Shown here: positions 16,098-49,475 of the stretch, piece after piece
Position numbering within the stretch: the stretch's first letter is position 1
Layout of the letters: each line of letters begins with the position of its first letter
Notes under the pieces: generated by a model
Databases searched by the model: none
Seen by the model: only the letters and a program-made list of their open reading frames with translations
Told to the model about the DNA's origin: nothing
Origin: Candidatus Polarisedimenticolia bacterium
GTDB lineage: Bacteria; Acidobacteriota; Polarisedimenticolia; Gp22-AA2; AA152
Length of the DNA stretch: 64,000 bases
Direction of reading: 5' to 3'
Assembly (NCBI GenBank): GCA_036004685.1
Contig: DASYRE010000051.1
Location: forward strand, 1-64,000
Position numbers and translations under genes: made by a program

Positions 16098-19000
16098 CTA
16101 TCGGCGCCGGGAGCCCCGGGCGGGGAAGAGGGCGGGGTCGCTCGTCCGTTGGGAGAGGCGGCCGGTCACCGCGCGGACTTGGTGGATCCCCCCGTCCTGC
16201 AACAGAGGAATCCGATCGGGATCGACGGGGACGCCGTCGAGCGTCGCTTCGACGATGGCGTGGTATTCAGGATCGGAATTTTTCACGTCGATCTCATAAC
16301 ACGCGCTCCCGGCGCGCCACCGGATGGAATAGCCGTTCCAGGATCCGGGGAACGAAGGCCGCAGCGCGAAGGTGGAGCCCTGAAGCCGCAGGCCGAGAAT
16401 CTCCTCCAGGCCGAACCGGTAGAGCCATCCGGCGGAGCCGGTGTACCAGGTCCACCCTCCTTGCCCCGCCATCTGCGGATGGAGGTGGATATCGGCCGCC
16501 ACGACGTAGGGCTCCACTTTGTAGCGCGCCACCTCGGCCTCGGAGCGCGCGCGGTTGATCGGATTCATGGCGTGGAACAGCTCCGCCGCCTCCCGGCGGA
16601 GTCCCAGGCGGCCCATCGCCATCGCCGCCCAGATCGCGGCGTGCGTGTAATGACCGCCATTCTCCCGGGCGCCCGGAACGTACCCTTTGATGTATCCCGG
16701 CTCCAGCGACGAGCGGTCGAAGGGCGGCGCCAGCAACGCCAGGAGCCCCTGGTCCCGGCGCAGCAGGCGCGCCTGGACCGAGTCGATCGCTTGGGCGGCG
16801 CGCTCCGGTTTCGCCGCGCCCGACAGCACGGCCCAGGATTGGGCGACGGAGTCGATCCGGCACTCCTCGCTTTCGGCGGAGCCGATCACCGTCCCGTCGT
16901 CGCTGACGGCGCGCCGGTACCACTCCCCGTCCCAGGCTGATTCGAGGCTTTTCGCCAGCCGCTCCGCTTCGTGGCGGTAGCGCGCGGCGGCCACGTCATC
17001 GCCGCGCGCTCGGACGATCGGCTCGAAGGCGCGGAGCACGTCGATGAGGAACCAGCCGAGCCACACGCTCTCCCCCCGGCCCCCCGCGCCGAGCCCGCTC
17101 ATGGCGTCGTTCCAATCGCCCGAGCCGATCAGGGGGAGGCCGTGCTCGCCGAAGGCGAACCCGCGCTCGAGGGCACGCGTGCAGTGCTCGTAGACGCTCG
17201 CCGAGCGAGCCGAGACCTCTGGCAGGCTATACGATTCGCGGCGCGCAGGCTCAAGCGCCGGCGCGCTGAGGTAGGCGGTCTCTTGATCGAGAAGCTCCCG
17301 ATCGCCCGTCGCCCGCACGTACTGCGCCACCGCGTAAGGGAGCCACAGGAAATCGTCCGAGCACCGGGTCCGGACGCCGCGGCCCGTCTCCGGATCCCAC
17401 CAGTGCTGCACGTCGCCTTCGAGGAATTGGCGGGACGCGGCCCGGAGGAGGTGCTCGCGGCACAAGTCGGGACGGGTCGCCAGAAGCGCGAGCGCATCCT
17501 GGATCTGGTCGCGGTAGCCGAAGGCGCCTCCCGGCTGGTAGTAGCCCGTGCGAGCCCAGAGTCGGCAGCTCAGGACCTGGTAGAGCAGCCACCGGTTCAT
17601 GATGAAGTCGAAGGAGCGATCGCCCGTTTGCACCTGCAGGGCGCCGAGGATCGCCTCCCAGCGATCCCGGACTTCGGCCTCGGCCTGGCGCGCCGCCGCG
17701 ACGCTGCCGTGCCGCTCCCGCAGCTCGGCGGCATGGCGCGCGTCCCGTCCTTCCCCCAGGAGCACGACGACCGTCCCCGCCTCCCCGGGCGCAAGCGACA
17801 CGATCGCCTGAAGCGCGGCGCAGGGATCGTGCCCCGCGCCGAAGCGTCCGGCGAGCTGGCGGCGACCAAGCGCCGCCGGCCGGGCGGGGCTGCCGTTGCG
17901 GCCGATGAACTCGAGACGATCGGCGGTCGCGGAAAAGGGCTTCTCGGAGATCGAGACGAACGCGACCCGCCCGGGGACGTCCCGGTTGAAGGGATTCCGC
18001 GCGAAGATGACGTGATGATCCAAGTCCGGCTCCGTGACGACGTGGAGATGCTCTCCCCGGCGCGGCGGACCCAGGGCCCATTCGTTGTAGGCGAAGAGGC
18101 TGAGCCGGCGGCGGGTGGGCGAGGCGTTCTCGAGCGTGAGGACGGAGAACTTCACCGGGTCCTCCGGATGGACGAAGATCCGCAGCTCCTGGGAAATCCC
18201 GTGCGCCGCGCAGGCGAACCGGCTGATTCCCGCGCCGTGACGGACCACCCACCGGCGGCGCGGCGCGCCGCCGGGAACGGCGGTCCAGATCTCGCCCGAG
18301 TCCTCGTCGCGCAGGTAGATCGTCTCGGAAGTCGGATCGGTGACCGGGTCGTTCGCGAAAGGCGTCAGCCGGTTCTCGCGGCTGTTTCCGGCCCACGTCC
18401 AGGACGAGCCCGACGCCGTCACCATGGTGCCGAAGGCCGGGTTGGCCATGACGTTGGCCCAGGGCAGGGGCGTCTGGCGGTCCGGCTCCAGGACGATGGC
18501 GTACTCCTTCCCGCCGTCGGCGAAGCCGCCCAGGCCGTGGCCGAATTCGAGGGGCGGCGCCTCGATCGGAGGAGTCGCGTCGCGCGAGGCAATCGCCGAG
18601 GGGAAGCGCGGCACAAACGGAGGAGGCCAGCGCGGCTCGGGCCGCGGCGCGTCGAGCTGCTCCGCGAGCTCGCCTCGCTCGCCATGGAGAATGGTCCCGG
18701 CGACGGCGGAGAGCAGGGCTTGCTCGTCCTCCGACAGGACGTCGCCGCGCAACAGGAACACTCCACCCGGGCGTTCCTTCCAGCCGGCCCAGGGACCGCT
18801 TTCGACCGCCGTCTCGAGCTGCTTTTGCACCTCGTCCCGGTAGCCGACCGGATGCTCGTTCACGATCGCCACGTCCGCGATCAACCCTTTGAGCCGCCAG
18901 AACTCCTGCGCCCGCAGGATCTGCCGCACCAGCTCCAGGTCGTTTTCCTCCGTCACCCGGACCAGCAGGAGAGGGAAATCGCCCGAGATGCCGAAGCGCC

Positions 19001-22000
19001 ACAAGGCGGACTGGCCCAGGACGTTGCCCGCGCGGACGTGCGGCTCGGCGCCGAGCGAGGGGTCGGTGAACAGCGTCGCGGAGGCGAGTCGCAGGAAGAG
19101 CTGCGCCTCTTCCGCGCTGATCCCCAGGTGGGTGCACTCGATCTGGCACTGGCTCCGGGCCAGGGTGAACGCGCGGGCCGCGATCGCGAAGTCGTGATAT
19201 TTGGCGCACAGCGCCGCGGCGGCCTCGCGGCTGGCGGCGACGCCGGTCGTGAAGGCCATGCGGGCCCGGCCGGCGGGCGGAATCCGGACACGGAGCCTGA
19301 GGCTGGCCATCCTGTCCATCACCGAGGCGCTCCGTCCTCTTAGCGGCCGCCCGTCGAGGGCGATCGGATCGTCGGGCTCGCGCCCGCGGCCGAGGAACCT
19401 CGCCCGATCGGTCTCCCACTGGACTTCCGCTTCCCCCGGCGCTTCGGCGCCGAGCACGTGCAGCGCCCAGGCTTCGGGCTCGGACGCCTCCCGCCGTCGC
19501 CGGCGGAACAGGAGCGCCGAGCTCGCGGGGAGGCAGGCCGCCTCCATGAACAGCTTCCCGAACGCCGGATGGGCCAGATCCTCCTCGAAGGAGGCGAGCG
19601 CCAGCTCCACGTAGCTCGTCGCCTCGATCTCGAGCGCCTCCTGGGTGTGATTGATCAGCGTGAGCCGGCGCACCTCGACGTCGTCTTCGGGAGACACGGC
19701 GACCTCCAGCCGCGTCTCGACCTCCCCGTCGATCCGGCGGAAGTCGGCCTTGTCCAGGAGGAACCTCACCTGGTATTCGTCCGCCTCGCGCCGCGTCGGC
19801 TGGTAGGCGGCCGACCAGACGAGGCCGCTCGTCTGATCCCGCAGATAGAGGTACTGGCTCCCCAGGTCTCTCGTCCGGTCCTCCCGCCAGCGGGTGACGG
19901 GACAGCCCCCGCACATCGACGCTCCTCCCCCCGCGTTCGTCAACACCACGGTGTAGCGGCCGTTCGACAGGAAATGCGCCTGAGGATGAGCCGTGTGCGG
20001 AGTCCGGTACCGGCGGACCGGAGCAGGGGCCGCCGAAAAATCGAACGACGGCCTCGCCGCGGGGGTCTGTCTCGAGATCGGCGCGTCCCGCGAGGGGCGC
20101 TCCTGGAGGAGGAGGTCCGTCACCCGGATCCTCGGATCGGCGTGAAACCGCTCCCGCATCGCGTCGCCGCACAGGAAGTTGTCCAAGGCGATCAGGGACA
20201 TCCCCTGATGGTGCGCCAGGAACGACTTGAGGACGACGCCGGGCTTGCGAATCCTGGTCCGGGCGCGGGGCCCCGTCTCCGCGCCGTCCCGGGGGGTGTA
20301 GTCGATCGCCTCGTAGAAGCCGTAACGCCCCTCCAGCCCCTCCGCGAGCAGACGCCGGATGTTGAGCAGCGCCGCGTCGGCGTCCACCAGCAGGGCGAGG
20401 AGGGTCGAATAGGGCGAGATCACGAGATCGTCCGCCAGGCCGCGCTTCAGGCCCACCGCGGGGATCCCGGAAGCCTTGTACTGATAATGGCCGCGCCGGT
20501 CGACGAGGTTGAACGCCGACTCGGAAATCCCCCACGGGACGCCGCGGCTCCGCGCATAGGACTTCTGCAGCCGCACCGCGTTCCGGCTGCTTCGATCGAG
20601 GAGCGTGCCGGGATAGCTCTTCATCAAGAGCAGCGGCATCAGGTATTCGAACATCGAGCCGCTCCAGGAGACCAGCGTCGGGGCCCCTCGGGCGCTGACC
20701 AGCCCGCGCCCCAGCTGGAACCAATGGCTCTGGGGCACTTCTCCTTTGGCGATGGCGATGAAGCTCGCGAGACGGGCCTCCGAGGCGAGCAGATCGTAGA
20801 AGGAGGGATCGTTGCGTCCCGCGCCGCCGTCGGCGAGACGGTGGCCGATGGCGAAGAGCCGGCGCTCCGGATCGTAGAGGAACCGGAAGTCCATCCCTTC
20901 GAACATCGCCAGGGCCTTGTCCGCCAGAGCGTCCAGGCGGCGCGCCAGGGTCGCGTCGGGATCGCCGGCGCCCGCGGCGCGCAGCTCCGCCGCGAGCCGG
21001 CTCGCCCACAAGAGCGCTTCCTGCGCCTGGGGCGCGCCGTTCACCCGCTCCTCGAAAGCCGCGATCTCTTCCAGGAGTCGCCGGCTCTTTTCCGGAGCCA
21101 GGAGGTCGGGCGGCCCGACCGCCGCCGGATCGGAGCCCGGAGCCGGAGCCCCTTCGCTCAGCGCCTCCCGCAGGGGAGCGGCCAGAAACCGGTTGCCGGG
21201 GGCCGAGACCGAGAACGCGTCGACCGCGTCGCGCAGAAGGGCGAGGGTGTCGGCCGCCCCCTCTCGCCCGGAGCGGGAATCGACCGGGGCGCGGGCGATC
21301 TCCCGCAATCCTTGAGCCAGCGTGATCAGGCACCCCGCCAGGTTGCCGCTGTCGACGGTCGAGACGTAGCGCGGCATCAGGGGGGCCAGGCTGCGCGTGT
21401 CGTACCAGTTCAGCCAATGTCCCTGGAAACGCTCGAGGCGCTCCAGGGTGGCGAGCGTCCGCTCGATCCGCTCGGCGAGCTCCCGCGCCGTCAGGAAGCC
21501 GAGATCGCGAGCCGCGAGCGCCGACAGAAGTCCCAGTCCGATGTTGGTCGGCGACGTGCGATGCACCGGCTGCTCCACTGCCCCTTCCTGGAAGTTGTCG
21601 GGAGGAAGGTCGTGATCCTCCGCCGACGCGAGCGTCTCGAAGTATCCCCACGTCCTCCGGGCGAGGCGCCGCAGCAGGCGGAGATCCTCCGGCCCGAGGT
21701 CCGGCCGCCGCACCCTCGCGGGCCGGCTGAGCGCGTAGGCGACGAAGGGAGCCGCCAGCCAAAGGAGGAGGAAAGGCAGCGCCACCGGCAGCGCCGACGG
21801 GCGGAAAGCCGCCAGTCCCGCCGCCAGTCCCGCCGCGAGCAGCGGGCTGGCCGCCATCTCGGTCAGGAACCGGGACCAGCCGTAGTCGCGCACCACGCGG
21901 GCCATTCCCGCCATCGTCACCCATTCCAACAGGCGCTTCTGGGTGAACAGCAGGCGCACCAGCGCGATGCCGGCGGCATGCACCATCCGGTAGGCGTGAT

Positions 22001-24650
22001 ACAGGAGAAACGTCACGGTCACGAGAAGCTGGGCGACCGCGACGGCGAGCGCCTCGCCGCTCAGCTTCAGGAACGCCAGCGGCGGTTGGACCGCCGGGCC
22101 GCGCAGCAGATGGAGCAAGGGCGGGAGCATCGGGAAGGCCATCACCCCCAGGACCGCGGCCGTCCAGGCGAGCGGGCTCCCCGGAAGCACGGCCCATCCC
22201 GCCGCCAGGAACAGCGCCAGCGCCGCGGGCGTGAGGCTGCGGCGCAGATTGTCGAGGATCTTCCAGCGGCTGATGATCGGCAGGCGATTGCGCACCAGGC
22301 GGCCGCGCGCCGGGATCCAAGGAAGCAGCCACAGGAGAATCTGCCAGTCTCCGCGGACCCAGCGGTGCTGGCGCTGCGCGTGGGACACCACGCTCGCCGG
22401 ATAGTCGTCCACCACTTCCACGTCGGTGACCAGCGCGGTGCGGGCGTACAGGCCTTCGAGAAGATCGTGCGACAGGATGACGTTGTCGGGGACCTTTCCG
22501 CCCAGCGCGGCCGCGAAGGCCCGGACGTCGTAAAGCCCCTTGCCGGTGAAGATCCCTTCGCCGAACAGGTCCTGGTAGGTGTCGGACACGGCGGTCGTGT
22601 AAGGATCGACCCCGAGGTTGCTCGCGTGGATGCGCGAGAAGAGCGATCCCGCCACGCTCGACATCGTGACGCTCACCCGCGGCTGGAGGATCGCGTAGCC
22701 TTGCGTCACCCGCCCCAGCGGGCGGTCGAAGACGGCGTGGTGCAGCGGGTGGAGGATGATGCCGATCAGCTGCCGGGCCGCGTCGCGCGGCAGGATCGTG
22801 TCGCTGTCCAGCGTGATGCAGTAGCGGACGCCGGGCAGCACGGAGAGGTCCCCCGCCTGCACGACGTAGCTCGTGTCGCGGTCTCCCCGCAGGAGCCGGT
22901 TGAACTCCTCGATCTTCCCGCGCTTCCGCTCCCAGCCCATCCAGCACCCTTCCTTCGGATTCCAGCGGCGCTCCCGGTGGAAGAGAAAGAAGCGGCCCCC
23001 TCCTGCGTCCCCGGCGCGGGCGTTCAGCTCCTCGATCCCCTGCCGCGCGGCGCGCAGCAGATCTTCGTCCCCCGGCATCGTGGCCGCGGGCGCGTCGGCG
23101 AAATCGCTGAGGATCGCGAAGTGGATGCGCGGATCCTGGTTTCCGAGCGCCTGGATTTCGACGTGGTCGAGCAGCTCGCGGACGCCGCTCAAACGGGTGA
23201 TCAGCGTCGGCACGATGACCATCGTCCGACCCTCCTCCGGCACGGCCCCTTTCAGCTCGAGGCGCGGAAGCCGGCGGGGAGGCGCGATCGACGCCGCGAG
23301 CCAGTGCATCACCCCCGTCGCGAGCTCGGCGGCCGGCAGGAGCGCCAGCAGCAGGACCCACTCGTCGTATTCGTCTCCGGGCGCGAGCGCCATCGCGCCC
23401 GCCACCCCGAGGGCGGTGAGCAGGCCGATCCCCCCGAGGTAGAAGAGCGCCGCGTGGCGGAAGAAGAACCGCCGTCCCCGCTGGCGCAGCCCCGGCCGGT
23501 GATTCAGCTCTCGCTCGAGCTCGCTCCGTCCCTTGCCGATCAGGTAGTAGCCGATGTGATGGGTGCGGTAGTCGCCCGGATCCCGCCGGGCCGCCTGCCC
23601 GGCGCACTCGACAACGCGACGCGCCGCGCTTCTCTGCGATTCTCCCGTCGGCTCCGCCAGATCCTCGATCGCCTTGCGGTAGCGATCGCGCCCGGCGAAG
23701 TCCATCCTTCCGTACACTCCCCCCGGATCGCGCCGGAGGATCTGCTCGACCAGGCTGACCTCCTCGAAGAACTCGTTCCAGTCGAGCGTCGAGCACAGCC
23801 TCAGCGTGGTGATCGAATTCGCGGTCGACGCCAGCTCGCGGGCCTGCTCCTGGTGCTCGGAGCGCATCACGTCTTCGGGGGTCCGGTTGGTCGCGGCGAG
23901 ACGGTCCTCCAGCCTCGAGCGCAGCGGCGCGGCCTCCGATCCGTACTCGCGCAGCCTCTGCAGCAGCCGGACGACGAAGGCCGTGCCCGGCTCGTCGGGA
24001 AGCTCGAGGGCCGCTCCGGGCGCGCCGATCTCGGGCTCCCCCAGGAAGCGGTCGGCCTCGGCTCGCGCCTGGCGCTTCTCCAGGATTCCTTCGGCCAGAC
24101 CGCGCAGGTTCTCGACCAGCGCCGCTTTGATCATGATGGGCCAGGCCCATAGCTCGCCGATGCTCAGGGGCGCGACCTCCTGGTAGGAAGACACGAAGCC
24201 GACGAGCCTCTGCCGATCGAGGCGGGCGTCGCTGTGCCGAATCAGGTCGAGCGCCATGGCGTAGACCCGCGCTCCGCCGGGCGCCCCGGGAGACGCCAGC
24301 TTGGGGAGGTCGAGGTAGTAGCGGCGCGGCAGGCTGCGCCGGACGTCGAGGACTTCGGTTCCGATGATGTGGAAGTTATCGAGCAGCCATTCGGCGGCGG
24401 GAACGAGGGGCTCGGAGCTCTTCGCGTCGCGGGCCAGCAAGCGATAGGCGCGCTGGAGCAGCGCGAGGTTCTCGTCCAGCCTGCGGAAGAACCGGCCGGC
24501 GCCTTCCCGAGCGCTGGCCGACGGGATGAAGCGCGTGGCGAGGATCCGGGCGCGCGCCTCCAAATCGGCCAAGCCCAGGATGGTGTCGCCCTCTTCGGCG
24601 GGGCCGGCGTAGGTTCCGGCTACTTCGTCCCGGCGGGTTGTCGGGTTCAT
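16098..24650 (-). CDS. ndvB: Cyclic beta-1,2-glucan synthase (NdvB/ChvB type)
   Basis: A giant 2850-residue membrane enzyme; 2800-2900 is normal for the family. The ATG at 24650 follows GAGGA. After about 400 soluble residues come membrane helices around a GT84 domain with DSD at 615-617 ([12 protein letters not shown]) and [11 protein letters not shown], which polymerises UDP-glucose. The C-terminal half carries two GH94-like phosphorylase modules ([33 protein letters not shown] with probable acid Asp2515) that set chain length. The product is a periplasmic cyclic glucan for osmoadaptation. The gene stands alone and is intact. Large open frames on its opposite strand are codon-bias shadows. 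Confidence 0.95.
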
Positions 24651-24786
24651 CGGGTTCGTTCCTCGTCGATGGGTCGGGCAGGCGGTTCCCGCCGCGCAAC
24701 TCCCGGCGGGACCCAGCCGTTCGCGCATGCCGGTGGGTAGTTTTTTCAGAGGGTTGCAAAGTTTTCAATCCGCCGGTCCGACGGCT

Positions 24787-32390: not shown

Positions 32391-35060
32391 TCAGAGACCG
32401 CGCCGCGCGGCGGCGGTGATCGCGCCGCGGGAGGCTTCGTAGTCCTTCCAGGGGTCGGTGCGGATCTTCCGCAGCCGGCCGGGGAGGTTCCGGAGGGTGA
32501 AGGAGTCGGAGCGCAGCGCCGGAGTCAGCTCCTCCCATCGCACCGGCGCCGACACGGGAGCCCCGGGGCGCGCGCGCGTCGAATAGGCGGCGATCGCCGA
32601 GGCGCCGCGGACGTTGCGCAGGTAGTCGAGGAATATCTTCCCCGCCCGTTTCGCCTTCGACATCGTGGCGGTGAAGCGCGCCGGCTGCTCGCGCACCACG
32701 GCCTCGGCGAGGGCCCGCGAGAACTCGTGGACTTCGTCCCAATCGTTGCGGCCGCGAAGCGGGACGACGATGTGCAGCCCCTTCCCCCCGGTCGTCTTCG
32801 GGAAGCTCGCGAGCCCGCGGTCGGACAGGCGCCGCCGGACCAGACGGGCGGCGTCGAGAACGGCGTCCCAGTCGACTCCCGGGCCGGGATCGAGATCGAA
32901 GGTGATCCGATCGGGGTTCTCGAGCCGATCGGCCCTCGACCCCCAGGTGTGGAACTCGAGAACGCCACGCTGGACCAGGCCGATCAAGCCCTCCAGCGTA
33001 TCGATCACCAGGTAGGCTCCCCGCCCCTTCTTTTCCTGGATCATCACGCGGCGGACGGCGGCAGGCAGCGTCTCCCCCGCCGCATGCTTCTGGTAGAAGC
33101 ATGGCTTGAGGGTCCCTTCCGGACACCGCACCAGCGTCAGGGGCCTCCCCGTCACGTGAGGCAGCACGTGGCCGGCGATCGCTTCATAGTATTCCGCCAG
33201 CTCCTGCTTGCTGATCCCCGCATCGGGATAGAGGACCTTTTCCGGGTGAGTCAGCGTCACACCCGCGACCTCGACTCGCGCGCCGCCGGCGGTCGCGGCC
33301 CGCCCGGCCCTCGACGCGCCCGAGATCTTCATCTTCGCGGCGCGGCTCGCCGCCGGGCTCGCGGCTCTCTCTTTCGCCGAAGCGTTCGCCGCCCGGCCCG
33401 CGGAGGGTTCCGTTCGTTTCTCGGATGCCGGAATCGCCGAGACGGGGAGGGCCCGCTCCCGGACGATCTCCTCCGTCTTCTTGTCCTCGCGCAGCCCCTG
33501 GAACGACGGCTGGCGGAGGAGGCCGTCCTTCGTCCACTCGGAGAACTTCACTTCGGCCGCCAGGACCGGCTTCACCCAGTGGACGCCGCGCGCCCGGCTC
33601 CCGCGCGGCGGGCGCGCGAACGGCGGCTCCTTCCGCTCCAGCCGCGCCAGCCGACTCTGGAGATCCCGGAGGACCGCACCGGTGAAGCCCGTGCCGACCC
33701 GGCCGCAATAGACGAGGCGCCCCCCGGAGTCGTGAACCCCGAGCAGGAGCGCGCCGATTCCCTCACGGGAGCCCTCCGGCTCCGTGAAGCCGCCGATGAT
33801 GAACTCCTGCCTCTGGAAGCACTTGATCTTCAGCCAGTCCCGCCCGCGTCCCGGCCGGTAGGCAGAGTCCTGGCGTTTGCTGACGATTCCCTCGAGGCCG
33901 CGGCGGCAGGCTTCCGCGAAGAACTCCGGTCCCCGGCCGACCACGTGATCGCTGTAACCGATTCTCTCGGATTCCGCGCCGGCGGCCTCGAGGAGCTGCC
34001 GCAGAGCCTGCTTCCGCGCCGCGAGCGGCAAGGGGGCCAGCGCGCGGCCGTCGAGATGCATCAGGTCGAACGCGAAGTAGCTGACGCCGCCGGCGTCCTC
34101 CCCGGCGAAGGAATTCTGCAGGGCCTGAAAGCTGGTCCGGCCCTCCGGCGTGACCTTGACGATCTCGCCGTCCAGCAGCGCCTCCTCCACCGGAAGCGCC
34201 GCCGCGGACGCCGCCAGGGTCCGGAGGCGGCCGCTCCAATCGTGGCCGCGGCGCGTCAGGAATTCCGCGCGGCCGTCCCGGATCCGGCAGATCGCGCGGT
34301 ATCCGTCGAACTTGATCTCGTGAAGCCACTCGTCGCCTGCCGGGGCCTCTTCCACCGGCGTCGCCAGCTCCACGGCCACCGCGCGTGGGAGCTTCTGCTT
34401 CGGCGCCTCCGGGGGAGGCGCAATCTTCCGGCCGCCGCCCTTCGGCTTCCCCGCTTTGCGGCCGGCCTGGGCGCGCGCGCTTCGGGCGGCCTGGGGGGAC
34501 ATCTCCTCCACCGTGCGGCCGCTGAGCACGCTCTCCGGCCTCTCCTGGAGAAGCGCGTCGCCGGAGCCGGGCTTCGCCTCGGCGTCTCTTTCCTTGATGA
34601 GCAGCCAGTTCTTGCCGTCTTCTCCCGCTTTCCCTCCCATCCGGACGAGGTTGAAGCCGCCGCGCAGCTTCTCGCCTTCCAGGGTGAACTTCATCCGTCC
34701 TTTCCGGTAGTCGGCCGCAGGGTCGCCTTTCGGCCGCCAGCGGCCGCGATCCCACAGGATCACGCTGCCGGCGCCGTACTCCCCTTTGGGGATGGTGCCC
34801 TCGAATTTCCCGTATGCGAGGGGGTGATCCTCGACGTGCACCGCCAGGCGCTTTTCGGACGGATCGAGGCTCGGGCCCTTCGGGACCGCCCAGCTTTTCA
34901 GAGTGTGCTCGAGCTGCAGGCGGAGGTCGTAATGCAGGCGCGAGGCGGCGTGCTTGTGGATGACGTAGAGGTTGCCCTGCTTGCGCCCCGCCGAGCCTTT
35001 CGGCTCCGGAGTGCGATCGAAGTGGCGCTTGGTCCGATACGGGCGGAGACCCATTCTCAC
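32391..35060 (-). CDS. ligD: ATP-dependent DNA ligase D (PE-LIG-POL)
   Basis: An 889-residue non-homologous end-joining enzyme. The N-terminal 3'-phosphoesterase (1-185) has the VIHKHAASRLHYDLRL and HVEDHP motifs. A basic linker leads to the ligase (about 225-530) with adenylated Lys250 in EIKFDGYR and DGEIV. After a low-complexity Ala/Lys/Arg linker (about 550-605) comes the primase-like polymerase (HPEKVLYPDAG, FDLDPGPG). The PE-LIG-POL order differs from the mycobacterial POL-PE-LIG order. The start overlaps the ku stop by four bases. All catalytic motifs appear intact. Confidence 0.97.
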   Translation of the reverse strand: MRMGLRPYRTKRHFDRTPEPKGSAGRKQGNLYVIHKHAASRLHYDLRLQLEHTLKSWAVPKGPSLDPSEKRLAVHVEDHPLAYGKFEGTIPKGEYGAGSVILWDRGRWRPKGDPAADYRKGRMKFTLEGEKLRGGFNLVRMGGKAGEDGKNWLLIKERDAEAKPGSGDALLQERPESVLSGRTVEEMSPQAARSARAQAGRKAGKPKGGGRKIAPPPEAPKQKLPRAVAVELATPVEEAPAGDEWLHEIKFDGYRAICRIRDGRAEFLTRRGHDWSGRLRTLAASAAALPVEEALLDGEIVKVTPEGRTSFQALQNSFAGEDAGGVSYFAFDLMHLDGRALAPLPLAARKQALRQLLEAAGAESERIGYSDHVVGRGPEFFAEACRRGLEGIVSKRQDSAYRPGRGRDWLKIKCFQRQEFIIGGFTEPEGSREGIGALLLGVHDSGGRLVYCGRVGTGFTGAVLRDLQSRLARLERKEPPFARPPRGSRARGVHWVKPVLAAEVKFSEWTKDGLLRQPSFQGLREDKKTEEIVRERALPVSAIPASEKRTEPSAGRAANASAKERAASPAASRAAKMKISGASRAGRAATAGGARVEVAGVTLTHPEKVLYPDAGISKQELAEYYEAIAGHVLPHVTGRPLTLVRCPEGTLKPCFYQKHAAGETLPAAVRRVMIQEKKGRGAYLVIDTLEGLIGLVQRGVLEFHTWGSRADRLENPDRITFDLDPGPGVDWDAVLDAARLVRRRLSDRGLASFPKTTGGKGLHIVVPLRGRNDWDEVHEFSRALAEAVVREQPARFTATMSKAKRAGKIFLDYLRNVRGASAIAAYSTRARPGAPVSAPVRWEELTPALRSDSFTLRNLPGRLRKIRTDPWKDYEASRGAITAAARRGL

Positions 35061-35920
35061 GCGCTCCTGGAGCGCCGGGCTTTCGCCGGGGTCCGTCCCG
35101 CGCCGCGTGATCGCTGGCTCCTTGCCTGCGTCTTCTCGATGCTCTTCTTGAGCAGCGGCATCAGGTCGACCACTTCGGCCATGCGCGGCTTCTTTTCGTG
35201 GGGCTCTTCGATCTCCTCGGTCTTGCCTGATTTCACCTTCCGGCGCACCAAGGCCAGGATGTCGTCGTGGTAGTCGTCCCGATACTCCTCCGGGCGCCAG
35301 GACGACGCCATGCTCTCGACGATCTGCTCCGCCATGGCGATCTCCTTGGGGGTGACGCCCAGCTTCTTGAGATCGCCGGCGGGCGCCTCGATCGCGCCCG
35401 GCTCGCGGAGCTCGTGCGGGTAGCGGAGGATCTCCAGGGTCAGGACCGCGTCACGGACGAAGAGCGCCGCGAGGCGCTGGCGCGTGCGGATCACCACCTT
35501 GGCCAAGCCGACCTTGGCGCTCCGGCGGAGCGTCTCGCGCAACAGCGCGTAGGCCTTGCTGTTCTTCTTGGCGGGTTCCAGATAATAGGGTTTCTCGAAG
35601 TAGACGGGCTCGATCTCCGCCGCGTCCACGAATGCGAAGATGTCGATCGACTGCGACGCTTTCGGGTTCGCCCCCTTGATCTCCCGATCGGTGAGGACGA
35701 CGTGCTGCCCTTCCTTGTATTCGTATCCCCGGACGACCTGATCCCACGGGACCTCTTTCCCGGTGGCCTTGCTGACGCGCTCGTAGCCGACGGGAGAGAG
35801 GTCCCGGCGATCGACGTAGCTGAACTTCAGCTCTTCTTTCGACTCTTCCGCGGGCTGGAGGCTCACGGGGATCGTGACTAGCCCGAAGTTGATGCTTCCG
35901 GTCCAGATGGCTCGCGCCAT
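35057..35920 (-). CDS. ku: Ku protein for non-homologous end joining
   Basis: A 287-residue bacterial Ku homodimer subunit (RAIWTGSINFGLVTIPVSL at the start; PVYFEKPYYLEP; AKVVIRTRQRLAAL). It binds double-strand DNA ends and recruits LigD. The Ku core runs to about residue 255 and a basic Lys/Arg tail follows (SQRSRGAGRTPAKARR), which in other species aids DNA binding. The gene is first in a two-gene operon with ligD, four-base overlap. The upstream gap contains a TATCAC tandem repeat that may be part of the promoter. Confidence 0.97.
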   Translation of the reverse strand: MARAIWTGSINFGLVTIPVSLQPAEESKEELKFSYVDRRDLSPVGYERVSKATGKEVPWDQVVRGYEYKEGQHVVLTDREIKGANPKASQSIDIFAFVDAAEIEPVYFEKPYYLEPAKKNSKAYALLRETLRRSAKVGLAKVVIRTRQRLAALFVRDAVLTLEILRYPHELREPGAIEAPAGDLKKLGVTPKEIAMAEQIVESMASSWRPEEYRDDYHDDILALVRRKVKSGKTEEIEEPHEKKPRMAEVVDLMPLLKKSIEKTQARSQRSRGAGRTPAKARRSRSA

Positions 35921-43078: not shown

Positions 43079-43999
43079 CTAGGCCCTGGCCCCGGGGGGC
43101 CCCTCCTCCTTCGCCTCCACCTCCTTGGCCGACTCCTTTTCTTTCTCCTTCTCCTTCCCCCTGGCCGACACCGACCAGTCGGTTTCGAAGACCTGCTTCA
43201 AGGCGCGCGTGATCCCGGGGTTGCCGATGATCAACCCCACTTCCCGCCGCTTGTCGAGGTCCTGCTTCCGCAGGCTCTGGCTCCCCACGAAGGCCCGGGT
43301 CCCGTCGCGCACGATCGCCCGCACGTGCAGCCGCAATCCCTTGAGCGGATGGACTTCGATCTCCCCGCTGGCCGCGCGCATGCCACCGAGGACGCGGACC
43401 TGAACCCCCTTCCGCGCCCTCTCCTCCAGCAGGCTGATGATCACGGGATCCTGGATCCGCGCGTCGTAGATCGCCAGGTCGCGGCGGGCTTCCCGGATGA
43501 ACCTCTCGAGCACGATCCGCGCCCCGTCGGGACTGATCACCAGGTTGGACTTCGCCGAGGGCGTGTAGGTCTGCCGCGTGCAGTCGGCTTCGAACAGCCG
43601 GAGGGCTTCCTGGACACTCTTCCGATCCTTCGTGGCGATGCCGAAGCTGCGGCAGCGCTTGATGTCGTTCTTCGTGAAGTTGAATCCGAGCAGGTGAAGC
43701 GTGTCGTCGACCACCATGAACTTGCTGTGATAGCGGAGAAGATCGTCCAGGGTCCGGGCGACCATGACGCCCGAGGCGAGCAGCCGCTCCTCCAGCTTCC
43801 GCAGGCCCTCCGCCCGGTCTCCCTTGGCGTGTGCGATGAGCGCGCGGACGCGCACGCCGCGGTGCACGGAGGCCGCCAGCGCCCGCTCGATCGCCTTGCG
43901 ATCGAACCGGAAGATGCAGACGTCGATCGAGACGCGCGCGCTCCTGATGATCTGGACGATCGGGACGACGCCGGCCTCCGGCTGAACGATCAGCTTCAC
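43079..43999 (-). CDS. Phospholipase D-like (HKD) protein
   Basis: A 306-residue protein with two PLD half-domains. The first HKD motif is complete (His91, Lys93, Asp98: YHSKFMVVDD). The second reads HVRAIVRDG (His225, Arg227, Asp232), with Arg in place of Lys. A Lys/Glu-rich tail (about 283-300) follows. PLD family members hydrolyse or transfer phosphodiesters (phospholipids, DNA). No signal peptide is evident. It is the last gene of the minus-strand phosphotransfer cluster, 15 bases after the DUF4956 gene. Confidence 0.88.
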   Translation of the reverse strand: MKLIVQPEAGVVPIVQIIRSARVSIDVCIFRFDRKAIERALAASVHRGVRVRALIAHAKGDRAEGLRKLEERLLASGVMVARTLDDLLRYHSKFMVVDDTLHLLGFNFTKNDIKRCRSFGIATKDRKSVQEALRLFEADCTRQTYTPSAKSNLVISPDGARIVLERFIREARRDLAIYDARIQDPVIISLLEERARKGVQVRVLGGMRAASGEIEVHPLKGLRLHVRAIVRDGTRAFVGSQSLRKQDLDKRREVGLIIGNPGITRALKQVFETDWSVSARGKEKEKEKESAKEVEAKEEGPPGARA

Positions 44000-44014: not shown

Positions 44015-44800
44015 CTACTTGTTCTTGGCCTTCGACTTCTCTTTCCACTCCACGCCGCCCTTCCCTTCCGGGACCAGCGACATCAAGGCGTTTGAGACGC
44101 GATCGGTTTGCACTTCGATCGGCGCCGTGACGAAGTAGGAGACCTCCTCCTCCGACGACCCGCGCAGCTCGAAGTCGGTCTTGAACCGGCGCAGGATCGC
44201 CTCCATCTTGGGCCGCAGCTCCGCGCTCTTCTCCCCGAACTTCACCGCCAGCTCGAAGCTCCGCGTCTGCAGCTCGAAGCTTTCGATCACCCAGAGCGTG
44301 ACGGTCAGGAACAGGGTCCCGAAGCCGCCCAGCACCAGGAGGCCGCAGCCCGCGGCGAGTCCGACCGCCAGGGCGCCGAGCATCACCACGGCATCCTTGG
44401 GATCGTCGATCTTGGAGCGATACCGGATCAGGCTGGCGACGCCGACGATGCCGAACGCCCGCGCCAGGCTCGCGCCGACCACCAGCATGATGACGGCGCC
44501 GACGATCGCCAGGACGATCTGCGTCTGGATCACGGCCGGATGGCGCGGGGGCGTCCCTCGCCGGCGCGGCCGCAGCGCCAGCAGCGTTCCGAGAATGGCG
44601 GCGATCGGCAGGCGGATGGCTGCGGATTTCAGCTCCTCCTTGACCCCGCCCGGCGTGTTCTCGGCCCCGCCCAGAAAGCCGAAATTCTCCGGTGAGGAGT
44701 CCCGGTCCGGCTGGTCCCCGGCGGCGAGGACGCCGAAGGCGATCGCCAGGAGGAGGCAGAAGACCGCCGCCCCCCGCGCCGCTCGAAGCGGCCGTCTCAC
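44015..44800 (-). CDS. DUF4956 membrane protein
   Basis: A 261-residue protein with an N-terminal signal-like helix, two or three further helices (IRLPIAAILGTLLAL, IVLAIVGAVIMLVVGASLARAFGIVG, GALAVGLAAGCGLLVLGGFGTLFL) and the family hallmark SLARAFGIVGVASLIRYRSKIDDPKDA. The soluble C-terminus (about 170-250) is predicted ferredoxin-like. DUF4956 genes commonly sit beside VTC-type polyphosphate polymerase or CotH kinase genes; here the neighbour is a different kinase-fold protein. The start overlaps the stop of that gene by four bases. Confidence 0.9.
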   Translation of the reverse strand: MRRPLRAARGAAVFCLLLAIAFGVLAAGDQPDRDSSPENFGFLGGAENTPGGVKEELKSAAIRLPIAAILGTLLALRPRRRGTPPRHPAVIQTQIVLAIVGAVIMLVVGASLARAFGIVGVASLIRYRSKIDDPKDAVVMLGALAVGLAAGCGLLVLGGFGTLFLTVTLWVIESFELQTRSFELAVKFGEKSAELRPKMEAILRRFKTDFELRGSSEEEVSYFVTAPIEVQTDRVSNALMSLVPEGKGGVEWKEKSKAKNK

Positions 44801-45798
44801 GAGCTCCGCCCTTCCCCGAGCGCCAGCCCTTCCTGGATCTTCGAGCGAATCTTCCGGACGTAGCGCGCCCGGATGGGCGGGGGATAGCCGGCGGCGCGGA
44901 ACGCGTCGTCGAGCTGGGAGGCGCTCAGGCGATCGAGAAGGCGGCAGGCCCAGACGACGTCGGCGACCTCGAAGTCCTTCACCAGCAGGCGGTGCCGCGC
45001 CTTGTACGCGAAATCGACGCGCCCGTCCCGTACGCCCCGGATCAGCCTCTCGCTTTCGAAGTCATCCACGTTGTTCCGCGTCCCGATGGGCCATTTCGTC
45101 CTCCCGAGCGATCCGCCGACGTCCTGGACGACGTACCGCCGCGCCGGGAACCCGCCCGATTTCTTCTTCACCTTGTAGATCCGGGTGTTGCTCTTCGTGA
45201 AGTCCCAGTTGTTCAGGACCAGGTTCGCGACGACGAGCCCCCGGAAGGGGCGGGTGTCTTCGAAAGGATTGTCCGTCCAGGACCATTCGCCGATCACCTT
45301 GTGGTCCGAGGAGAGCCGGAAGCGCCCCGGCGGCGGCTTCTCCATCCCCCGGCCGCTCACGTTCCACTCCGGCACGAAGTAGGTGGCGGGCTGATGATAG
45401 CCGATCGCCCACAGGATCCGGGAGACGACGACGTCCGACTGGGCCTCCTCGCCCACTTTCACGGCCCATTCTTTACCCTGGGCATCGACCACGTCGTAGC
45501 CGCTGCTGTGGCCTGTCTTGTCGAGTCCGATCACGCGGTAGGTCGCGCCGGACCGGGGAGCAAGGTCCGGTCCTCCCGGGCCGAAGTAGAGGTCCCGCGC
45601 CCGGATGTCGGCGGGCTCCTGCCAGAGCTCCGCCAGCCGCTTTCCTCCTTCGGCGGGGCGCGGCGCCGCGTCGCGCCGGCCTCCGGCGCCGACGTAGACC
45701 ACCAGCAGGACCGGAAGCGCCGCCGACAGGAACGCGCGCCGGGCCGCCGCCGGCCGGCTCATCGTCCGCGCGGAGAATCGCGAGAAGCGCGGCATCAT
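44797..45798 (-). CDS. Predicted exported or membrane-anchored kinase-fold protein
   Basis: About 333 residues. A basic N-terminus and one hydrophobic helix (residues 22-37, AFLSAALPVLLVVYVG) suggest export. The rest resembles the HipA/PI-kinase fold: Lys114 in WAVKVGEEAQSDVVVSRILW as possible ATP-binding lysine, a catalytic-loop-like LVLNNWDFTKSNTRIY (Asn197, Asp199), and VQDVGGSLG (Asp226) as metal-binding site. The substrate is unknown. GGAG six bases before 45798 selects this ATG over that at 45804. It lies 37 bases after the metallophosphoesterase gene and overlaps DUF4956. Confidence 0.75.
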   Translation of the reverse strand: MMPRFSRFSARTMSRPAAARRAFLSAALPVLLVVYVGAGGRRDAAPRPAEGGKRLAELWQEPADIRARDLYFGPGGPDLAPRSGATYRVIGLDKTGHSSGYDVVDAQGKEWAVKVGEEAQSDVVVSRILWAIGYHQPATYFVPEWNVSGRGMEKPPPGRFRLSSDHKVIGEWSWTDNPFEDTRPFRGLVVANLVLNNWDFTKSNTRIYKVKKKSGGFPARRYVVQDVGGSLGRTKWPIGTRNNVDDFESERLIRGVRDGRVDFAYKARHRLLVKDFEVADVVWACRLLDRLSASQLDDAFRAAGYPPPIRARYVRKIRSKIQEGLALGEGRSS

Positions 45799-45835: not shown

Positions 45836-47389
45836 TCAAGGTCCCGCCGCCAGAGGCGCCGGGCCGCGCATCCAGGCGCGCGCCGCATCGCATCCCCGCA
45901 GCCACTCCCGCGTCTGGTTGTCTTTCGAATCCTTCGCTTCCGCTTCCGGGGTTCGATAGATGACCCCGCAGTCGATCGTCCTGCCCGAGGCGGCCAGCGT
46001 CTGGAAGAACAGATCGTCCCCGGCGATCTCGACGATCATGAGCGAGTTGTCGGCATCGTAGCCGAAGGCGGTGAAGTCGTGCGGGCGGAGATCGCCGCGG
46101 CGCACCTTGGCCGAGGCCCCGGCGACGAAGTAGTGGATCCCCCTCTGGGGCTTCGGGCGCTCGTAGAAGTGCTCGTGACCGTTGAAGACGACGTTGACCT
46201 TGTTGTTCACGAGCGGCTCTTCGAGCAGCGCCCGGATCCCCACCGATTCCTTCGCGTGGTAGCCCGAGGAATAGAGGGGATGGTGGAAGAAGCAGATGCG
46301 CCAGCCGTTCTCGCCCGAGAACTCCTTCTCCATCCAGGCGAGCTGCTCCGGATCGCTCGGCTGGTTGCTGTTCAAGGAGACGAATTTCATGTTCCCTTCC
46401 TTGAACGAGTAATAGGGGTGGCCTCCCATGCTGAACGGCTTGAAATCAGCCTGGCCCGCGAGATCGTGGTTCCCGAGCGTGGCGTGGAACTGGATCCGGG
46501 CGTCGAGGAACCTTTTGTAAGGCGTCGTGAACTGCCGGTTGTAGTCGGCTGCCGACTCCAGCCCCGCGTAGAGGTTGTCGCCCAGCATCAGGATGAACTT
46601 GAAGTGGTGGCCCATCGAGTAGAAGCTCCAGAGCATGTCCGCGACCTTCCGCTGGTTCGCGTCGCCCGTGCCGGTGTCGCCGAGGACCGCGAAGCGCACG
46701 GAGCGGAGCCTCTCGGGCATGGCGAAATAAGCGAAGGTCCTGGGGGCGGAGGCGGGAGCGGCCGTCGTCGGCGGGGACTTCGCCGGCGGTTCCGGGAAGG
46801 CGCCCGGGAGGTAGTCGAGCACGACGCCCGCCTCCTTGTCCGCGAGCACCAGCGTCCGGCCGGCGAAGCGGTACTCGAGCTGATCCGGGACGGCCGGGAG
46901 GTCTTCGAGAAGGACCCCGGGGACGGAAGGAATCGACAGTCGGCGGTTCAGCGCGATCTGGGAGGGCGTCGTCTTGTAGATCGAGGGATCGTTCTGCTCC
47001 TCCATCCCGTCGCGGATCGCCCCCGAGGCGGGCCCGCTGAATGCCGCCGCGAGCTGCTTCTTGATGTAATCGCTACCGGGGACGGTGAAGAGATCGCCCA
47101 GCTTCGCCCGGGCACGCATGGACCTGATGCTGACGGCGAGCAGTCCGCGCCGCCGCTCCACCGCCTTCGCCTGCTCCTCAGGGGTCTTGCCCGCGGGGTA
47201 CTTCTTCTCCGCCTCCTGGCGCAGCGGGCCGGTCGCCTCCACGTACCTCTGGAGGCCCGCCTGGAACTCCGCCGCGGCCGGATGGACTTCAGCCGGAGGG
47301 GGCGGCGCCTTGGTCGGGCAGCCGTGCCCGAACTGCACGAAGATCAGAAGCGAAAATGCCAGCGTCCGTGCTTCTCGACCGTATCTCAT
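45836..47389 (-). CDS. Calcineurin-like metallophosphoesterase, exported
   Basis: A 517-residue protein. A short hydrophobic N-terminus (residues 9-20) suggests secretion, and about 200 residues of Pro/Ala-rich and helical sequence precede the catalytic domain. All dinuclear-metal motifs are present: GDTGTGD (237-243), GDN (270-272), GNHD (306-309), HH (369-370) and GHEHFYER (404-411). The purple-acid-phosphatase-like arrangement suggests a phosphomonoesterase or nucleotide/phosphodiester hydrolase. It lies 45 bases after the SixA-like gene, same strand. Confidence 0.9.
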   Translation of the reverse strand: MRYGREARTLAFSLLIFVQFGHGCPTKAPPPPAEVHPAAAEFQAGLQRYVEATGPLRQEAEKKYPAGKTPEEQAKAVERRRGLLAVSIRSMRARAKLGDLFTVPGSDYIKKQLAAAFSGPASGAIRDGMEEQNDPSIYKTTPSQIALNRRLSIPSVPGVLLEDLPAVPDQLEYRFAGRTLVLADKEAGVVLDYLPGAFPEPPAKSPPTTAAPASAPRTFAYFAMPERLRSVRFAVLGDTGTGDANQRKVADMLWSFYSMGHHFKFILMLGDNLYAGLESAADYNRQFTTPYKRFLDARIQFHATLGNHDLAGQADFKPFSMGGHPYYSFKEGNMKFVSLNSNQPSDPEQLAWMEKEFSGENGWRICFFHHPLYSSGYHAKESVGIRALLEEPLVNNKVNVVFNGHEHFYERPKPQRGIHYFVAGASAKVRRGDLRPHDFTAFGYDADNSLMIVEIAGDDLFFQTLAASGRTIDCGVIYRTPEAEAKDSKDNQTREWLRGCDAARAWMRGPAPLAAGP

Positions 47390-47434: not shown

Positions 47435-47947
47435 CTAGGGCTTTCGTGAGCCGAGCATGCGGAGCATGCGCGGCGTGGCTTGGAACAGGAGCCGGCCTCC
47501 TCCCGGGGCCGGACTGTCCGGCAACTCGATGCAGCACAATCCCCCCTTCTTCCACTTCATCATGACGGCGGGGGCGCCGCTGAGCAGGAGGCCGGCGAAC
47601 TTCGAGAGATCCGGCTCGTGGCCCACGAGGACGATTTCGTCCCGGCCGTTCTTGTTCTTCAGGGATCGGATGATGCGGAACGGATCCCGTCCCGGCGCGA
47701 GCGCCTGCTCGACGCGGACCTTGGCCTTCGGTTTCATCGCGGCAGCGACGATATCGGCCGTCTGCTTGGCGCGGACCAAGGGGCTGGAATGAATCACCTT
47801 CGGCTCGATCCCGAGCTTGCGCAGCCCTCCCGCCGCGGCGCGCATGCGCAGCCGCCCGCGCCGCGTCAGCGGCCGGGCATCGTCGTCCGGAAAGCGGTGC
47901 GGATCCCGGGCGCAGGCGATGGCGTGGCGGAGGAGGTAGAGTTTCAT
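47435..47947 (-). CDS. sixA: SixA-type histidine phosphatase
   Basis: A 170-residue histidine-phosphatase-superfamily protein: phospho-accepting His in LYLLRHAIA, Arg in SSPLVRAKQTADIV, and the second catalytic His in VLVGHEPDLSKF. SixA enzymes remove phosphate from phosphohistidine proteins; members next to polyphosphate or CHAD genes are common, so the real target may be different. The start overlaps the stop of the second thymidylate-kinase-like gene by four bases (ATGA), proving cotranslation. Confidence 0.9.
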   Translation of the reverse strand: MKLYLLRHAIACARDPHRFPDDDARPLTRRGRLRMRAAAGGLRKLGIEPKVIHSSPLVRAKQTADIVAAAMKPKAKVRVEQALAPGRDPFRIIRSLKNKNGRDEIVLVGHEPDLSKFAGLLLSGAPAVMMKWKKGGLCCIELPDSPAPGGGRLLFQATPRMLRMLGSRKP

Positions 47948-48792
47948 GGAAGTTCTCCTTCAGGGCTTCCGTCGGCCGCTTGGCGGTCCGGAGGGGGTGT
48001 TCCCCTCCCCGCTTTTCTCATCGCCGGTTCCGGCTCGAAGAGCAAGGGGCGCAGGGCCGCGAGGCTCTCCGTCAGCGTGGTCACCCTTCTCCTCTCCAGC
48101 AGCGACTGCACGCGCCGGCGGATCCTCGCCTGAATCTCCGCCTCGCTCCGGGTGGCGTCGACCGTCACGAAGCCGAATTCCCGGGACATCCGGTTGTACT
48201 CGCGGATGAGCCGCCATTGATATTTGCGGAACGACTCGAAGAGATCCATGCCTAGGTGCAGGTCCATCCCCGCCTCCCAGTAATCGATTCCGCGAGCCCG
48301 CAGGACCCGGGGGAGCAGGGTGTCGACGTCGATCTTGAGGTAAAGGACGAGCTCGGGGACGAGCGCGAAGCCGAAGACGTTCCGGATCCAGGCCGGATCC
48401 GCCCCGCGCACCACGCTGCGGGCGAAAGCGGTGTACATGTACCGGTCGGCCAGGACGACGAATCCCGAGCGCAGCGCCGGGATGATGATCTTCTCCATCC
48501 GGTCGGCGAAATCGGTCGCGTACAGCAGGCTGAAGGTGAGCTGGTTCAGCCGGTGTCCGGCCTTGGCGGCGCCGATCGTCTCGGACATCAGCTCCGAGCG
48601 CGTCCACCCCGTCTCGATCACGCCGTAGCCCTGGACTTCGAGCCACTCCTTCAGCAGGCTCACCTGGACGGAGCGTCCGACCCCGTCGGTTCCCTCGATC
48701 GTGATCAGCGTGCCGTTGAGATTCGCCAGATCGAGGTACGGCAGGCCGTAGCCGAACTGGGGCCGGCTGGATGGATTTCCGCTCATGCCCAC
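47944..48792 (-). CDS. Thymidylate-kinase-like protein with altered P-loop
   Basis: A 282-residue Tmk-fold protein. The P-loop reads EGTDGVGRSVQ: Arg40 replaces the invariant Lys and Val replaces Thr. Other Tmk features remain (ATDFADRMEKII, VLADRYMYTAFAR, LVLYLKIDVDTLL). It is about 30% longer than usual at the C-terminus. Lys-to-Arg in a Walker A motif generally weakens catalysis, so the protein may bind but not phosphorylate nucleotides, or use another phosphate donor. It is preceded by the intact paralogue, which it overlaps by ten bases. Confidence 0.88.
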   Translation of the reverse strand: MGMSGNPSSRPQFGYGLPYLDLANLNGTLITIEGTDGVGRSVQVSLLKEWLEVQGYGVIETGWTRSELMSETIGAAKAGHRLNQLTFSLLYATDFADRMEKIIIPALRSGFVVLADRYMYTAFARSVVRGADPAWIRNVFGFALVPELVLYLKIDVDTLLPRVLRARGIDYWEAGMDLHLGMDLFESFRKYQWRLIREYNRMSREFGFVTVDATRSEAEIQARIRRRVQSLLERRRVTTLTESLAALRPLLFEPEPAMRKAGRGTPPPDRQAADGSPEGELP

Positions 48793-49475
48793 GCCTCCCT
48801 CTCCTCGCCCAGCGACAGCAGCCGGTTCACGTGCAGTCTCACCCGCTGCTGCTGGCTGTCGATGCTCCGGGTTCCGTCGACGACTTGGAACCGGTACTGC
48901 GGCGCCATGCGATCGTATTCCTTCAGGACTCTTCCCTGGAAGAGGCGAAAGCTCTCGACCGGATTCTCGCTCAGCCCGAGGTCCATCCCGGCCTCATAGA
49001 ACTTGATCTTGTCCCGGCTCCCGAGGATCCTCTCCACCGCCACGTCGAGAGGAACGCGGAAATAGAGGATGAGATCGGGCTCCACGGCGAAGGAGTACAG
49101 GTCACGCACCCATTGCGGATGAACGCCGCGCGCCAAGTCGCGAGCGAGCGCCGTGTAGACGTAACGGTCGGCGAGAACGGTCATTCCCGCTTTTAGATAG
49201 GGGGTGATGTGGTACGTCAGGCGGTCGGCGAAGTCGGTGGCGTGCAACAGGCTGAAGGTGCTCGGCGTCAGGAGGTTCTTCTTCTTGCCTCGCTTGGTCG
49301 CCTGCCGGACGAGGCTGGAGGAGTTCCATTCGGTGAAGGAGACCTCGACGCCGAGCGACAGGAGCCACTTCTGCAGGAGCTGGATCTGAGTGCTCTTTCC
49401 GGACCCGTCGATCCCCTCCACCACGATGAGCCTGCCGCGGGGAGCCTCGCGCCTTTGTGCCCGAACCCGCACCAT
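48783..49475 (-). CDS. Thymidylate-kinase-like protein, intact P-loop
   Basis: A 230-residue P-loop kinase with GIDGSGKSTQ (21-30) intact, plus ATDFADRLTYHI, VLADRYVYTALARDLARG and ILYFRVPLDVA. The DR-Y loop differs from housekeeping Tmk (usually DRY-x-x-SSxAYQ), so this may be a specialised paralogue rather than the essential dTMP kinase. Similar tandem kinases occur near polyphosphate genes in some genomes as I recall. It is the first of seven minus-strand genes. Confidence 0.85.
   Translation of the reverse strand: MVRVRAQRREAPRGRLIVVEGIDGSGKSTQIQLLQKWLLSLGVEVSFTEWNSSSLVRQATKRGKKKNLLTPSTFSLLHATDFADRLTYHITPYLKAGMTVLADRYVYTALARDLARGVHPQWVRDLYSFAVEPDLILYFRVPLDVAVERILGSRDKIKFYEAGMDLGLSENPVESFRLFQGRVLKEYDRMAPQYRFQVVDGTRSIDSQQQRVRLHVNRLLSLGEEREAWA

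Follow-up and report, generated by a model that had tools for sequence, protein, structure and literature searches.

Gene organization at the locus

The stretch of DNA analysed here, the window, comprises 64,000 nucleotides from a Candidatus Polarisedimenticolia bacterium (contig DASYRE010000051.1), a member of the Acidobacteriota. Its minus strand holds at 44797..45798 a conserved open reading frame with homologues, which encodes a predicted exported kinase-like protein of 333 aa, designated KIN hereafter. The frame starts with ATG at 45798 and ends with TGA at 44797, so the coordinates of the original prediction are correct; an alternative in-frame ATG at 45888 would give 363 aa but would run into the upstream gene. 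KIN belongs to a co-directional operon in the order calcineurin-like phosphatase, KIN, DUF4956 and PLD-family protein, with 37 nt between the first two genes and 15 nt between the last two. The phosphatase (45836..47389, minus strand; PF00149, E 5e-13) carries a lipoprotein signal with the lipobox GHGC, and the PLD-family protein (43079..43999, minus strand; PF13091, E 2e-28) is without a signal peptide. The DUF4956 membrane protein (44015..44800, minus strand) matches PF16316 with 40.5 bits against a cut-off of 30.6 and lies directly downstream of KIN, its GTG start and the TGA stop of KIN forming a 4-nt GTGA overlap, so that the pairing of KIN with DUF4956 proposed originally is real.

Upstream of phosphatase-KIN-DUF4956, and joined to them by overlaps or small gaps, are a SixA-like histidine phosphatase (47435..47947, minus strand; PF00300), which is separated by 45 nt, and two overlapping thymidylate-kinase-family genes (47944-48792 and 48783-49475, minus strand; PF02223). 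The SixA-like gene and both thymidylate-kinase-family genes are probably part of the KIN operon. SixA was rejected as a member of the system, since it had no match in KIN neighbourhoods and is not conserved with KIN. The first thymidylate-kinase paralogue (47944-48792) has a Walker A motif in which Arg replaces Lys (GTDGVGRS), and at L041:1949-3243 a thymidylate-kinase pair likewise adjoins a KIN-family gene. Elsewhere in the window, LigD (polymerase-ligase) and Ku, the bacterial end-joining pair, adjoin each other at 32391-35920, and a 2876-aa protein encoded at 16098-24728 combines GH94 with glucoamylase-like domains, which are also seen in cyclic glucan synthases.

Distribution and conserved residues of the KIN family

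A single-sequence search found KIN homologues in 35 of the 297 Acidobacteriota genomes, and a broad profile that takes in divergent branches found family members in 74 of 294; genes in the genomes of relatives were called by codon bias. Sampling in depth covered the Acidobacteriota. Beyond this phylum, no homologue was found in the plasmid collection or in viral contigs, and a single-protein scan of a genome-contig collection with KIN gave one relative. The window's own genome encodes a paralogue of 50% identity (G000:C36:93536-94459; L002, L034), which has no adjoining DUF4956, calcineurin-type phosphatase or PLD gene. A search of full-text literature, outside of which most subscription journals lie, turned up DUF4956 in three papers and the KIN family in none.

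The alignments contained 31 homologues at first and then 66 sequences including divergent branches, with identity down to 16%. Only six columns of the latter are fully invariant, namely G73, K114, G133, D199, D226 and G228. The original prediction had picked out Lys114, Asp199 and Asp226 in the motifs WAVKVGEEAQ, NNWDFTKSN (which also holds Asn204) and VQDVGGSLG (which also holds Gly228). All three motifs are present in KIN and, because the three named residues are three of the six invariant columns, the motifs are not due to chance. On the minus strand, the candidate ATP lysine Lys114 is encoded at 45457..45459, the candidate catalytic Asp199 of NNWD at 45202..45204 and the candidate DFG-type Asp226 of DVG at 45121..45123, all three invariant in 66/66, whereas the candidate metal-binding Asn204 (D+5; 45187..45189) is Asn in 59/66 and Gln in 7/66. 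Glu occupies position 118 in 65/66 and position 122 in 65/66. The conserved residues follow the kinase order K-E-(D-x4-N)-(D-x-G), and the signature of the kinase superfamily, that is, Lys, helix-C Glu, Asp with Asn five residues later and Asp before Gly, is present in the family. Divergent branches read H-x-D-x-K-x-x-N, and one long branch has a literal D-F-G. A longer divergent branch (L202:5757-8021 and similar), whose open frames are mostly 500-650 aa, is widespread across the phylum and carries N-H-x-D-A-K-x-x-N and D-F-G-S; the one member scanned had no Pfam family over the cut-off.

The KIN of the window departs from its relatives at two places: it has Asp122, against Glu in all 65 others, and Thr201 (D+2), against Lys in 56/66. 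These unusual residues favour the explanation that KIN is a pseudokinase, or a kinase-fold enzyme with other chemistry such as AMP transfer, that works with DUF4956 in a scaffolding or sensing role, and there are precedents in SelO and SidJ, kinase-fold families whose chemistry has changed. However, the catalytic Lys and both Asp, which pseudokinases rarely keep, are invariant in the 66 divergent sequences, and phosphatases adjoin KIN as described below, so this explanation is considered very unlikely.

N-terminus and export

Exported kinases are few in bacteria, and ATP is normally absent from the periplasm and from the outside of the cytoplasm generally. The N-terminus of KIN had been taken for a membrane helix that would place the rest of the protein outside the cytoplasm. 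The hydrophobic segment at about residues 18-40 is signal-peptide-like over about residues 18-38 (45685..45747, minus strand; hydropathy peak at residue 22), and a hydropathy heuristic gives a signal-like N-terminus in 63/66 members. In these N-termini basic residues precede a strongly hydrophobic stretch, behind which an A-x-A-like site lies in most cases, and nine have a lipobox-like motif. To judge from these sequence features, a cleaved signal is more likely than a membrane helix; across the family the segment reads as a signal peptide or lipoprotein signal and not as an anchor.

Predicted fold

KIN of the window matched no entry of Pfam or NCBIfam and had no useful match among PDB sequences, no member of the family passed any Pfam cut-off, and no significant match was obtained to solved structures or to the sequence of any kinase family. 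In particular, CotH (PF08757) had no match in 31 family members, PI3/PI4 kinase (PF00454) had none in the family, and Fam20C had none among Pfam families and PDB chains. HipA_C (PF07804) matched two relatives weakly (E 0.24 and 0.16, the latter 12 bits against a cut-off of 30.5). Among 177,635 PDB sequences compared with the broad KIN profile, actin-fragmin kinase (1cja, E 0.16) came first, matched in the Lys/Glu region. Profile alignments with HipA place Lys, the catalytic Asp and a G-(T/A)-x-P-K loop in register, and that with CotH places the catalytic Asp in register, with weak scores in both cases. When each profile-profile score was compared with 60 column shuffles, the score of the broad KIN profile against HipA was reached by 0/60 and that of the narrow profile by 9/60; against CotH, the narrow profile's score was reached by 2/60 and the broad profile's by 1/60, the reversed control being also higher in the last comparison.

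Two AlphaFold models of KIN were compared with known structures. The first, made from 2 sequences (pLDDT 40), was uninformative: its Foldseek list consisted of unrelated proteins with no preference for kinases, and it therefore serves as a control indicating that kinases are not the default Foldseek answer. The second model, made from 3 sequences, is of low confidence (mean pLDDT 47.8, pTM 0.53), but its secondary structure follows the kinase order of Lys strand, helix C, two strands, helix E and catalytic loop, and 50/50 of the Foldseek matches listed are kinase-like folds, the best with E 0.085. In VIA-align the second model matched LepB best (Z 6.8, middling by the tool's scale), followed by CtkA (5.9), HipA (5.3), PI3Ks (about 4-4.5), MavQ (4.2) and Fam20A (3.7).

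Convergence on a kinase-like Lys and Asp in an exported enzyme of some other fold would be consistent with the lack of a significant sequence or structure match and with the low model confidence. Against this, the residue order, the D+5 spacing of Asn, the flanking Glu, the predicted secondary structure and the Foldseek list all agree, and such convergence appears highly improbable. A kinase-like fold of KIN is likely on the low-confidence model and the conserved residues, supported although not proven. The original likening to HipA or PI-kinase finds support in the residue order and, at low model confidence, in the predicted fold, with HipA and PI3K both among the structural matches, but does not extend to membership of either family by sequence.

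Phosphatases and other neighbours of KIN

Five partners, namely calcineurin-type phosphatase, dual-specificity phosphatase, PLD-family protein, DUF4956 and PPK1, were scored within 4 kb at 54 KIN loci, kinship among the loci entering through trees only. A calcineurin-type phosphatase adjoins KIN at 13/54 loci and an exported dual-specificity phosphatase at 9/54, the latter never together with the calcineurin type; most of the dual-specificity phosphatases near KIN combine a signal peptide with an intact H-C-x5-R. A close homologue of the PLD-family protein is found at 15/54 loci, DUF4956 at 9/54 and PPK1 at 4/54. Since 24/54 loci are without any of the five, the association of KIN with its partners is recurrent and not universal. 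On the KIN tree there are 8 label changes for the calcineurin type and 7 for the dual-specificity type, which indicates that the phosphatase pairing arose or re-formed more than once. Furthermore, of 20 DUF4956 loci with no close KIN, three contain phosphatases of these two types; at two of the three a divergent KIN is present, and at the remaining one KIN lies about 10 kb away.

Other features of these neighbourhoods are as follows. The N-terminal about 200 aa of the window's phosphatase (45836-47389) exist as a separate export-like protein in L062, L185, L073, L192 and L195, and the stand-alone copy in L062 had no Pfam match. In addition, an ABC transporter of about 615 aa (ABC_membrane and ABC_tran) lies near KIN, forming a cluster found at 13 loci; loci with the transporter include L057, L059, L062, L065, L067, L073, L185, L187 and L189.

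DUF4956, CotH and polyphosphate

The 294 Acidobacteriota genomes contain 52 DUF4956 genes, whose partners were counted within 6 kb. CotH is near 21 of these genes (13 of them also with VTC) and the KIN family near 15 (3 of them also with PPK1); 5/52 have VTC alone, and CotH, KIN, VTC and PPK1 are all absent from 11/52. CotH and KIN share a DUF4956 locus in 0/52 cases (P = 6.7e-5 under independent placement, shared ancestry ignored), and this mutual exclusion bears out the suggestion that KIN occupies the place of CotH beside DUF4956. In the DUF4956 tree one supported clade (99/96) comprises 14 KIN-linked and 9 unlinked members and no CotH-linked one, and the DUF4956 of the window belongs to it; the clade argues that the pairing of KIN with DUF4956 is old and is not the result of repeated random insertion. 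Six DUF4956 loci without either kinase were sampled with Pfam and showed no common alternative partner. The window's own genome has a CotH gene elsewhere.

The pairing with DUF4956 is one part of a wider context which includes exported phosphatases and polyphosphate polymerases. In the sampled Acidobacteriota, VTC genes are beside DUF4956 in 18/19 cases, and full-length PPK1 adjoins the KIN family at four loci, two of which have PPK1, KIN and DUF4956 in succession (L054:5348-9365 and L058:5320-9311) in genomes with a second PPK1 elsewhere; a fifth locus has PPK1-DUF4956 with a divergent KIN relative. In Gram-positives, too, CotH and DUF4956 occur together with a polyphosphate polymerase, as accessory genes next to pel (PMC7112168). 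The PLD-family protein of the window's operon (43079-43999) gives a weak colinear match over its whole length to the catalytic half of PPK1 (E 2e-5, relatives up to 7e-11), and a cardiolipin synthase has no such end-to-end alignment. As a minimal polyphosphate kinase this protein was rejected, its PLD motifs being kept and its PLDc_2 Pfam match being far stronger, but it remains a lead.

These linkages favour an alternative centred on polyphosphate, in which cytoplasmic VTC or PPK1 makes the polymer, DUF4956 helps to move it outward, and CotH or KIN uses it as donor or handles it, with the PLD-family enzyme as possibly the polymerase in the window's operon. This would supply a donor outside the cytoplasm. 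On the other hand, linkage to PPK1 is seen only in a single bacterial family (f30), no PPK1 or VTC was found in the window's own genome, which has PPK2, the motifs of the PLD-family protein are those of an ordinary PLD, and no kinase of the fold of KIN is, to our knowledge, a user of polyphosphate. This alternative is accordingly judged unlikely. A bolder form, that DUF4956 modules are devices of polyphosphate-driven extracytoplasmic phosphorylation in which DUF4956 lets the chain through the membrane, interchangeable CotH and KIN enzymes spend it on extracellular targets and the secreted phosphatase is the off-switch, is considered slightly less likely still. As a donor, nevertheless, polyphosphate is a candidate, because ATP is normally lacking outside and DUF4956 is linked to VTC and PPK1.

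Proposed function of KIN

Taken together, the conservation, predicted fold, export-like N-terminus and gene context are best explained by an exported phosphotransferase that acts with a membrane partner and with a phosphatase undoing its effect, and KIN is probably such a kinase-fold enzyme paired with a phosphatase. The donor is the weakest element of this reading, ATP being normally absent outside the cytoplasm. KIN would be made with a signal peptide and would fold outside the inner membrane, where Lys114 with the Glu118-122 pair, Asp199 with Asn204, and Asp226 would bind the phosphate donor and metal. It may then move phosphate to a protein, a glycan or lipid being less likely as substrate, in the periplasm or on the surface, and the adjoining exported phosphatase may reverse this modification. 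For DUF4956 we infer the role of membrane partner, be it anchor, regulator or donor conduit, and in DUF4956 modules KIN would replace CotH, a kinase unrelated to it by sequence.

These findings suggest that phosphorylation and dephosphorylation take place outside the cytoplasm in the bacteria concerned. The KIN family has an intact kinase signature and yet matches no family model or PDB sequence searched. Moreover, that exported phosphatases of two unrelated kinds recur beside it would speak for reversible phosphorylation outside the cytoplasm in a large phylum of soil bacteria. The exclusion of CotH and the linkage to VTC and PPK1 give DUF4956 a testable role and make polyphosphate a testable donor candidate.

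Comparison with known systems

CotH (PF08757) is an exported kinase-fold protein, as KIN is predicted to be, and is encoded beside DUF4956 and a polyphosphate polymerase, in the same genomic slot as KIN; this location is a feature of context and not proof of kinship. The KIN family differs from it in having no Pfam CotH match, in sharing no DUF4956 locus with it and in being linked to another DUF4956 clade. HipA and CtkA (PF07804) are the second-ranked fold group for the low-confidence KIN model in VIA-align, although KIN is below every cut-off for them and HipA is cytoplasmic, whereas the KIN family is export-like. Fold matches of the KIN model also include PI3K/PI4K and actin-fragmin kinase, the last being the best PDB sequence match of the broad KIN profile, but KIN is without a Pfam PI-kinase match and without a lipid-kinase context. 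Finally, Fam20C and Fam20A, which are animal proteins with no sequence match to KIN, would share with it the principle of a secreted kinase fold, and Fam20 structures are among the matches of the KIN model.
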